64,000 nt of DNA from Pelagibacteraceae bacterium AG-404-N13 (lineage in GTDB: Bacteria > Pseudomonadota > Alphaproteobacteria > Pelagibacterales > Pelagibacteraceae): the NCBI GenBank assembly GCA_003216255.1, contig QCJD01000005.1, positions 16,315 through 80,314 on the forward strand, given 5' to 3'. Shown piece after piece: positions 3,181 through 6,930 of the stretch. The translations under genes and the position numbers were made by a program. Every line of letters starts with the position of its first letter. Position 1 is the stretch's first letter. The notes under the pieces were generated by a model. It was not told where the DNA came from. It saw only the letters and a program-made list of their open reading frames with translations, and ran no database searches.

Positions 3181-3905
3181 TGGCTATTTGGGGAAGTTTA
3201 ATTGGTGGAATGATAGGTTTATCTTTAGGAGGACCATTTGGAATGTTATTGGGTTCTTTAATAGGAGGAAAAATATCTAGAGCAAGATCTTCAAGTGGAT
3301 TTAAATCTTTTGCTCAACCTCAACAGATTTTTGCATTATCTCTAATAGTACTATCTGCTAAACTAAGCAAAGCTGATGGTCAAATAAGCAAAGAAGAACT
3401 TATAGCGGTAAAAGACAAACTTAAAATCCCAGAAAACGAAATAGATCAAGTGGGAAAAATATTTAATAAAGCTAAGGAAGAAAGTGCGGGATATGAACCA
3501 TACGCTCAACAAATTGCACAAATTTATAGAGGAAATATAAATGTATTAGAAGAAGTTATAAATATACTTTTTTACATAGCTGAGGCAGATGGAAATGTAA
3601 GTAATGCTGAGCTTAAAATGATTGAACATATTTCTCAAATATTTGGTTTAACAGAAGTTCAATTTAATAGCATTAAAGAAAGTAGAAAATCATCAGATAA
3701 GCTTAATCCTTATGTTGTATTAGAAAGTCATCCCGATGATACAATTGAAATAATAAGAAAAAGATACCTCAAATTAAGTAAAGAACACCACCCTGATTTA
3801 CTTATGAGTAAAGGAGTTCCTCAAGAAGTTATCGATGAAAGCAAAGCAAAAATGAGAGCTATTAATTCTGCATGGGATCAAGTTCAGAAATTGAAATCAA
3901 ACTAA
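3180..3905 (+). CDS. DjlA-like co-chaperone with TerB-like and C-terminal J domain
   Basis: Gly-rich N-terminal membrane segment, TerB-like acidic helices ([22 protein letters not shown]), C-terminal J domain with HHPD. Confidence 0.85.
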
Positions 3906-5176
3906 AATTGTTCTGATTCTGTTGAACCTTCCATTGCAGTAGTTGAACTTTTTCCTGAGCTTATTGTATTTGAAACTGCATCAAAATAAGATGTCCCAAC
4001 TTCTCTTTGGTGTTTTACACTAGTGTATCCATCTTTTTCTCTAGAAAATTCATGTTGTTGAATTTTTGAATAAGCAGTCATACCTTCAGTTTTATATTTT
4101 TCTGCTAATTCAAATATTGCAATGTTTTGTGTATGAAATCCTGCAAGTGTAATAAACTGAAACTTATAACCCATTTCTCCAATTTTTTTCTGGAATGATG
4201 CTATTTCGTCATCAGATAAATGTTTTTTCCAATTAAAAGAAGGTGAACAATTATAAGCTAATAATTTTCCTGGAAATTTTTCATGAATTGCATCTGCAAA
4301 CTTTTTCGCTTCTTCTAAATTTGGAGTAGCAGTTTCACACCATATTAAGTCTGCATAAGGTGCATAAGCAAGTCCTCTTGAGATTGCTTGTTCAATTCCA
4401 TCTTTTACATAAAAGAAACCCTCGGGTGATCTTTTGCCAGTTAAGAAAGGTTTATCGTTTTCATCAAAATCATTTGTGATTAACTTAGCTGCATTAGCAT
4501 CTGTTCTAGCGAGAATTATAAGAGGAACATCTGCAATATCAGCTGCTAATCTTGCAGCTTTAAGATTTCTTATCATAGTACCAGTCGGTACCAATACTTT
4601 ACCTCCCATATGACCACATTTTTTTTCACTAGCAAGTTGATCTTCAAAATGAACTCCGGCTGCTCCAGCTTTAATAAATTTCTTTGCTAATTCAAATACA
4701 TTTAAAGGTCCTCCAAAACCAGCTTCTCCATCAGCTATAATTGGCAACATATAGTCTACTCTTTTATTCTCTTTCATATCACCATCGATTAATTCCATAT
4801 GTTGTATTTGATCTGCTCTTATTAAAGAATTATTCATTGCTTCAACTAATTTTGGTGCACTATCATAAGGATATAATGATTGATCTGGATACATTTCACC
4901 AGCACTATTCGCATCTGCCGCTACTTGCCAACCACTAAGATATATTGCTTTTAATCCTGCTTTTGCATGTTGAACTGCGTGGTTTCCAGAAAGCGATCCA
5001 AGAGTATTTATATAGGGTTCTGTATTTAATAATTTCCACAATTTTTGTGATTGATGTTTGCACATTGAATACTCAATTTTAACCGATCCTCTCAATCTTT
5101 CTACTTCCTCTGGAGTATAATCTCTTTTTATTCCTGCAAATCTCTTTAGATCATAAGATACGTTTTCTGCTGACAT
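3902..5176 (-). CDS. aceA: Isocitrate lyase
   Basis: [14 protein letters not shown] signature; full-length 424 aa. Confidence 0.96.
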
Positions 5177-5227: not shown

Positions 5228-5392
5228 CTAGTTATTTTGAGTAAATTCTTCTGTAAACTCGTTCATACCACTTGATCCCCAATCACAATGATCATCTCTT
5301 AGATAAACCCCTCTAGTTTGATGCTCAGATTGCTCTTGTTGACTAGTGATTTGTTGGTTGTTTTCAGTGCTTTTAATTTTGTTTTTTTCCAT
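5228..5392 (-). CDS. Small hypothetical protein upstream of aceA (about 54 aa from internal Met)
   Basis: ORF track gives 5228..5431; the ATG at 5392 (MEKNKIKSTENNQQ...) keeps the repeat cluster upstream; same strand as aceA. Confidence 0.5.
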   Translation of the reverse strand: MEKNKIKSTENNQQITSQQEQSEHQTRGVYLRDDHCDWGSSGMNEFTEEFTQNN

Positions 5393-5394
5393 TA

Positions 5395-5499
5395 TGTAAA
5401 TTTTATAATTTACATGATTTACAAAATCCACTTAATTATTGATTTTACTTGTAAATATGATAAATTTTTTGTAAAAATAAATTTACAAAATTTACAAAT
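5395..5499. promoter_or_regulatory. Cluster of TTTACAAA/TTTGTAAA repeats; candidate operator array for the adjacent regulator
   Basis: TGTAAA-N8-TTTACA (5395-5414); TTTACAAAAT (5418-5427); TTGTAAAT (5449-5456); TTTTGTAAAA (5467-5476); TTTACAAAAT (5482-5491); TTTACAAAT (5491-5499). Confidence 0.6.
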
Positions 5500-5505
5500 A
5501 GTAAA

Positions 5506-6930
5506 ATGAGTAAAATAGACAATAAAATAGGTCCAAAAATAAAGGCTTTTAGAAGACAATTAGGCATGCAAGCCAATAAACTTGCTGAAGAACTAAGTAT
5601 TTCTCCAAGTTATTTAAATCTAATTGAAAAAGGTGAAAGAAAAATAGATGGAGATTTATTATTAAAAGTCTGTGAAAAACTAAAAATTGAGCTTTCAGAT
5701 TTAACGAGCAAAACAGATTTAAATCTAGAAAATAATATTTCAGAATTACTATCAGATGAATTGTTTGAAGATTTAGATATTCTTGGTCCAGAAGTAAAAG
5801 ATTTAGTCAATACAAATCCAAAAATTGCAAAAGCTTTAATTAAATTAGGCGACAACTTTAAACAAAAAGATCATGAAATTGTAAATAAACTTGAAAATAT
5901 ATCTGGAAAAATAATTGATAGTAGAAAAGCTGCTTTTCCAGGAGAGGTAATTTCAGATTTTTTACAAGAAAATAAAAATTTTTTTCCAAAATTAGAAAAT
6001 TTTGCAAATAATATTTTTGAAAAAGTTAAACAACATAATAGAACAAGATATATTGCACTTTGTGAATTTTTAAATGATGAATATGGTATTGTTGTAAAAG
6101 ATGTAATTCCTGAAGAAGGAAAACCTTTTTCAAAAATTTATAAAGAAAAAGAAAAAAAATTATTTTTGTCAGATTATCTTTCAATAGAGACTAAAAAACT
6201 CCACGCTGCCGCACAAATTTCTCAGGAAGGTGCTTCAAATGAAATAGAGGAATATTTATCAACTTTTAATTTCCCTTCTGAAGAAGCAAAAAAACTAACT
6301 AGAGTTGCTTTATTAAATTATTGTGGTGCAGCAATTTTAATGCCTTACAAACTATTTCATAGGGAATGCAAAACATTAAAATATGATTTAGAACTTTTGC
6401 AGAATACATTTGCTACTTCATTCGAACAGGTTGCTCATAGAGTTACTTGTCTGCAAGATCCAGATCTTCCAGGAATTCCTTTTCATTTTTTAAGAGTTGA
6501 TGTTGCAGGCAATATTTCTAAAAGATTTTCGTTATCAGGAATAGAAATACCACGTTATGGTGGTGCGTGTCCTAGATGGAATGTTTACTCTGCCTTTTCT
6601 AGACCTGGAGTAATTCAGGCTGCAGTGAGTAAAATGACCAACGGAGAAAAATATGTTTGCATTGCAAGAACAGTAGAGAAAGGGGTCGGAAGATATGGGC
6701 AAAAAAAAAGTATGTTATCAATTGGTCTTGGGTGTGAAGCCAAATATGCTAAAGAATTTGTATATACTGAAAATTTAGATTTAAATGATAAAAAATCAGA
6801 ATTACCAATAGGTGTGTCTTGTAGAACTTGCGATAGATTGGATTGTTCTCAAAGAGCATTTCCTCCGTTACATAAAAAATTTGATATTGATATAAATTCT
6901 AGAGGTGTATCTGTTTATGTAAGTGAGTAA
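5506..6930 (+). CDS. XRE-family transcriptional regulator, RamB/ScfR (short-chain fatty acyl regulator) type
   Basis: N-terminal HTH (IKAFRRQLGMQANKLAEELSISPSYLNLIEKGERK) plus long C-terminal region with CRTCDRLDCSQRAFPPL, typical of RamB-like regulators. Confidence 0.88.
   Translation: MSKIDNKIGPKIKAFRRQLGMQANKLAEELSISPSYLNLIEKGERKIDGDLLLKVCEKLKIELSDLTSKTDLNLENNISELLSDELFEDLDILGPEVKDLVNTNPKIAKALIKLGDNFKQKDHEIVNKLENISGKIIDSRKAAFPGEVISDFLQENKNFFPKLENFANNIFEKVKQHNRTRYIALCEFLNDEYGIVVKDVIPEEGKPFSKIYKEKEKKLFLSDYLSIETKKLHAAAQISQEGASNEIEEYLSTFNFPSEEAKKLTRVALLNYCGAAILMPYKLFHRECKTLKYDLELLQNTFATSFEQVAHRVTCLQDPDLPGIPFHFLRVDVAGNISKRFSLSGIEIPRYGGACPRWNVYSAFSRPGVIQAAVSKMTNGEKYVCIARTVEKGVGRYGQKKSMLSIGLGCEAKYAKEFVYTENLDLNDKKSELPIGVSCRTCDRLDCSQRAFPPLHKKFDIDINSRGVSVYVSE

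Follow-up and report, generated by a model that had tools for sequence, protein, structure and literature searches.

Two conserved operator-like sites in a probable shared control region between the isocitrate lyase gene and an ScfR/RamB-like regulator gene of SAR11 bacteria

SAR11 bacteria have few transcription regulators. In a search of largely open-access literature we found no named regulator of SAR11 isocitrate lyase, and none of the best matches joins SAR11 with ScfR, RamB or PrpR. The stretch of DNA analysed here (64,000 nucleotides, hereafter the window), which comes from a 1.17 Mb SAR11 (Pelagibacterales) draft genome, raises the question of whether a repeat array between aceA and a divergent regulator gene serves to control both genes. 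A sequence-only reading had proposed that six repeats form binding sites for a RamB/ScfR-type regulator, giving autoregulation plus control of aceA. From the comparisons below, we consider it probable (about 0.87) that the array serves both genes as a shared control region, with two operators at which the neighbouring ScfR/RamB-like regulator acts. The function of this region is most likely regulator autoregulation plus control of aceA, with binding predicted from the form and conservation of the sites.

The presumed target, aceA (3902..5176, minus strand), encodes isocitrate lyase (NF011645, 725.5 bits against a cut-off of 562), and the regulator gene occupies 5506..6930 on the plus strand. 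The array had been located correctly, at 5395-5499 and with the right sequence, and it does lie between these two genes, but a conserved 54-aa ORF (5228..5392, minus strand), recognised from its translation and represented by 60 distinct versions, comes before aceA as the first gene on that side. About 110 bp separate this ORF from the regulator gene, and the GC content of the reported stretch is 13%.

The regulator contains an N-terminal XRE-type HTH domain (PF01381, 45.7 bits), an IrrE-like middle domain (PF06114, 37.9 bits) and a C-terminal ScfR domain (PF09856, 201.7 bits against a cut-off of 24, E 7.8e-60), which place it in the ScfR/IsaR family, and it is the only such protein that we found in the host genome. 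As a member of this family it would be expected to bind acyl-CoA and to form a tetramer. It aligns with the solved structures of MtPrpR over residues 68-467 (E 3e-64). The [4Fe-4S] cluster of MtPrpR is liganded by CX2CX4C plus a GAF-domain cysteine (PMC6765138), and each of the 172 full-length relatives examined carries the matching CX2CX4C and GGxCP cysteines. The ScfR part of the earlier assignment is thus upheld by PF09856. The RamB part is not, since the protein scores 369.1 bits against the NCBIfam RamB equivalog NF038139, which has a curated cut-off of 700, and ScfR or RamB-like is therefore the safe name.

The repeat itself is packed more densely in the array than the base composition would predict, although only its clustering is unusual. 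Exact copies of TTTACAAA on either strand occur four times within 5395-5499, at 5418(+), 5468(-), 5482(+) and 5491(+), and all of these also match TTTACAAA(A/T). The count of six was too high, as the three other relatives are partial (TGTAAA at 5395-5400, TTTACAT at 5409-5415 and TTGTAAAT at 5449-5456). No other 105-bp stretch of the window has four copies of TTTACAAA. When the suggested comparison with background was made, four copies were reached in one of 200,000 first-order Markov sequences modelled on the 13% GC array region, and two tandem sites in none of the 200,000. Over the whole window TTTACAAA is found 18 times against 17.95 expected, so that the single word is at chance frequency and unusual in its clustering only. 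The scan of the genome that had also been proposed was made with the tandem pattern TTTACANNNTTTACAAA, which occurs exactly twice in the 1.17 Mb draft genome, both times in this spacer, while the reversed control pattern is absent. Chance clustering of an AT-rich word, to which the window-wide frequency of TTTACAAA would lend itself, has a negligible probability in view of these simulations, and the array is real beyond what chance produces in AT-rich DNA.

Chance clustering is further refuted by the footprint across orthologous spacers, a check that had been set beforehand. From 105 loci in relatives we obtained 101 distinct spacers, 100 of which, all from one genus, were aligned; mean majority fractions were calculated from 17 representative spacers that are mutually less than 80% identical. 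In all 100 spacers two tandem sites are kept, whereas the intervening DNA drifts. The putative operator site A (TTTACATGATTTACAAA, 5409..5425) shows at most one mismatch to TTTACANNNTTTACAAA in 100/100 spacers and has a mean majority fraction of 0.94. The tandem reported just before the regulator start, at 5482-5499, is present as written, and the putative operator site B (TTTACAAAATTTACAAA, 5482..5498) shows 0-2 mismatches in all 100 spacers, with a mean majority fraction of 0.97. This fraction falls to 0.66 in each of the segments from site A to the centre, 5456-5466 and 5499-5505. The distance to the first start codon towards aceA, that of the 54-aa ORF, is 17-33 nt for site A, and site B stands 8-24 nt before the ATG of the regulator gene; both sites are upstream of the respective start, at opposite ends of the spacer and 73 bp apart from start to start. 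The conserved unit, present twice, consists of two near-palindromic 8-bp boxes in direct repeat with a 1-base gap, which is the form of a PrpR-type operator. A 20-bp inverted repeat at 5395-5414 had been singled out as well and does exist as described. Its right arm is part of site A, but its left arm has a mean majority fraction of 0.74 and is missing in several lineages, and the poor conservation of this arm rules out the inverted repeat as the binding unit.

Comparison was extended to three further genera of the same family (g5, g6 and g7), in which the regulator is 58-60% identical, isocitrate lyase is about 75-77% identical and the regulator gene and aceA are likewise divergent. In g5 and g6, site A persists as TTTACAATATTTACA, and in g7 the second box is weaker (TTTTCA). 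Directly before the ATG of the regulator gene, g5 carries TTTGTAAATTTTGTAAA, which is site B exactly reverse-complemented; the corresponding sequence in g7 is TTGTAAATTTTGTAAA, and in g6 one box is intact and one weaker. Site B is therefore retained in reverse orientation in the sister genera, as would be expected for protein binding to near-palindromic boxes and not for a promoter or ribosome signal.

This last point bears on the possibility that the repeats are promoter or leader elements of the two divergent genes (-35, -10 and initiation region), kept for polymerase and ribosome, in which case no dedicated regulator would bind them. Both the boxes and, to a high degree, the genome are AT-rich, so promoter or leader constraint could be responsible for part of the conservation, and the region contains plausible promoter elements in DNA of 13% GC. 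CTTGTAAA (5448..5455, plus strand), in which 8/8 columns are conserved at 0.9 or above in the 100 spacers, may be a -35-like element or an extra half-box of the regulator gene, and TGTAAA (5470..5475, plus strand), invariant in 100/100 spacers, may be its -10 region or an extra box; the latter lies 17 bp plus one after the -35-like TTGTAA, a fixed -35/-10-like spacing. A consensus promoter scan, however, gave no promoter above shuffles, so these positions are tentative. Promoter constraint accounts poorly for a 17-bp tandem at both ends of the spacer, for the reversal of site B in the sister genera, for the restriction of the strict pattern to this locus genome-wide, for the agreement in geometry with the MtPrpR footprint, or for the similar repeats that precede ScfR genes from other families, and as the sole explanation we regard it as improbable. 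It is very improbable that another regulator, for example one responding to iron or redox state, binds the sites and controls both genes. Such a regulator would suit the iron response of SAR11 isocitrate lyase in the field, where Southern Ocean water limited in iron is reported to show raised expression (PMC6618146, citing Beier et al. 2015), but the absence of the strict pattern elsewhere in the genome suits a local regulator, and both box and spacing fit ScfR precedents.

The closest precedent is MtPrpR of Mycobacterium tuberculosis, from the MccR group of ScfR/IsaR. Its footprint lies between prpDC and the divergent prpR gene and covers two 8-bp palindromes, TTTGCAAA and TTTGCgAA, with a 1-nucleotide gap (PMC3420887). 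The SAR11 locus shares with it the 8+1+8 boxes between divergent regulator and target and the [4Fe-4S] cysteine pattern (PMC6765138). It differs in that MtPrpR has the box TTTGCAAA in place of TTTACAAA, a methylcitrate operon as its main target, and one tandem site rather than two. The class 2 RamB of Paracoccus denitrificans has been shown to activate through two boxes that lie upstream of malate synthase at a distance of 18 bp from each other (PMC10370305); by our own reading of the wild-type and mutated oligonucleotides 46 and 48 in that study, these boxes, TGACAAACCTTACAG and TGACAATACTGACTG, repeat T[GT]ACA at 9 bp. The SAR11 regulator resembles this protein in being divergent from glyoxylate-cycle genes in every complete locus and in the similar 9-bp period of the adjacent sites. 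Paired boxes with an 18-bp distance ahead of an operon are not found, however, and the SAR11 tandem sites are instead 73 bp apart, one for each gene, and not at malate synthase. RamB of Mycobacterium, a repressor of icl1 and of its own gene (PMC3420887), belongs with that of Corynebacterium to class 1. Regulation of isocitrate lyase would be common to these and the SAR11 protein, which stands apart from them by its score against the NCBIfam RamB family. PccR is an alphaproteobacterial ScfR member whose box is TTTGCAAA, with a box spacing unlike that of the SAR11 sites. In Rhodobacter sphaeroides it activates propionyl-CoA assimilation (PMC10370305).

The geometry recurs among more distant homologs. 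The comparison set drawn from other alphaproteobacterial families numbers 26 ScfR genes (about 34-45% identity), and an isocitrate lyase gene of 57-64% identity is nearby in 18 cases. Among gaps of 0-6, the 8+1+8 arrangement gives the best mean match (12.5/16) and exceeds its own shuffles in most cases, with perfect repeats at L222 and L237. No clear 8+1+8 repeat is present at L225, L231, L245 or L246 of this set, some of the genes are fitted best by a gap of 0 or 2, and a few show little repeat. The geometry is hence common but not universal among distant ScfR genes. Together, the footprint, the sister genera and the MtPrpR-like 8+1+8 geometry support the proposal that these are sites of the adjacent regulator, which would govern both itself and aceA.

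In the shared control region that we favour, the regulator would bind both sites. Site A would fall within what is probably the core promoter for the transcription unit formed by the small ORF and aceA, and at site B, at the start of its own gene, the regulator would limit its own expression. Expression of aceA may then be switched via site A by a CoA thioester together with the state of the [4Fe-4S] cluster, ligand binding and cluster dependence being carried over from homology with MtPrpR and RamB. Either sign of control has a precedent, since among the characterised relatives P. denitrificans RamB activates and the mycobacterial RamB proteins repress. We give slightly better than even odds to aceA being repressed until ligand binding or loss of the cluster lifts the repression, as site A is just 17-33 nt from the first start codon; should the leaders be short, both sites would overlap core promoters, which would favour repression of both genes. 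Activation, for which the P. denitrificans protein is the precedent (PMC10370305), is given a little under even odds. A more speculative and rather unlikely extension is that the regulator is the iron link of the SAR11 glyoxylate shunt and the 54-aa protein an accessory of isocitrate lyase or of the switch. The [4Fe-4S]-loaded, CoA-bound form would repress aceA through site A, and loss of the cluster in iron-poor water would derepress it; a repressor of this kind would explain the reported higher expression of isocitrate lyase under iron limitation.

The two genes also behave as a unit in evolution, being present or absent together. Both are found in 27 of 37 congeneric genomes, one genome (G002) has aceA only and another (G017) the regulator only, the missing partner in each case falling beyond the contig end, and the remaining congeneric genomes are without both genes. 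A deletion scar in G015 (L029, 1486-1578), where the final eight codons of aceA run directly into the final 26 of the regulator gene, indicates that the aceA/regulator cassette was lost as one piece. Gene order is constant in every complete congeneric locus seen. Across the order, the ScfR domain is present in 167 of 297 genomes (100 of the 150 good ones), and neither gene was found in any of the 24 genomes of family f2.

A wider regulon was sought and rejected for the strict pattern, which in this genome is limited to the one spacer. Relaxed tandem searches of 13 genomes gave many matches, and the perfect ones away from the locus that were inspected are coding sequence. With one mismatch allowed, TTTRCANNNTTTRCAAA outnumbers its reversed control by a factor of about two to several in the 13 whole genomes; coding bias or further weak sites are possible sources of this excess. 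The malate synthase gene lies away from the aceA/regulator locus, and its short upstream gap contains no tandem pattern. No Rfam family, such as the glycine riboswitch, reached its gathering score in the window or at the malate synthase locus.

The control region is a new instance of a regulator type and an operator geometry that are already known. It nevertheless offers a specific candidate, in which a conserved operator is combined with a regulator family that has an iron-sulphur cluster and senses CoA esters, and hence a testable route by which very abundant ocean bacteria may adjust isocitrate lyase. The operator signature is suggested for annotating ScfR regulons in the Alphaproteobacteria.

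Less ordinary are the small protein specific to this family and the regulators with a duplicated HTH. The 54-aa ORF has no match in Pfam or NCBIfam and, save for one weak hit, is confined to this family in a class-wide search. Its product has a variable N-terminus and a near-invariant core, G[IV]YxRDDHCDWGSSGM, and the ORF is also found between regulator and aceA in L185 and L187. Another short ORF, sharing ESNCVS..D.C..ETN, lies before aceA, between it and the regulator gene, in g5 and g6 (L185 and L186).

A tandem-HTH variant of the regulator, with two intact HTH domains 88-89 aa apart in one open frame of about 566-594 aa, is encoded at L005, L010, L011, L013, L024, L041, L090-L094, L104, L137, L152, L156-L158, L166, L167, L169 and L171, and, by tblastn, at L009 and L168. 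The count is rough, at about 18 distinct relatives, and L009 and L168 were labelled as single on the tree. The variant is patchy on a tree built from the remainder of the protein and needs several changes, at least three of which are forced by well-supported branches, which points to repeated gain or loss of the tandem HTH.
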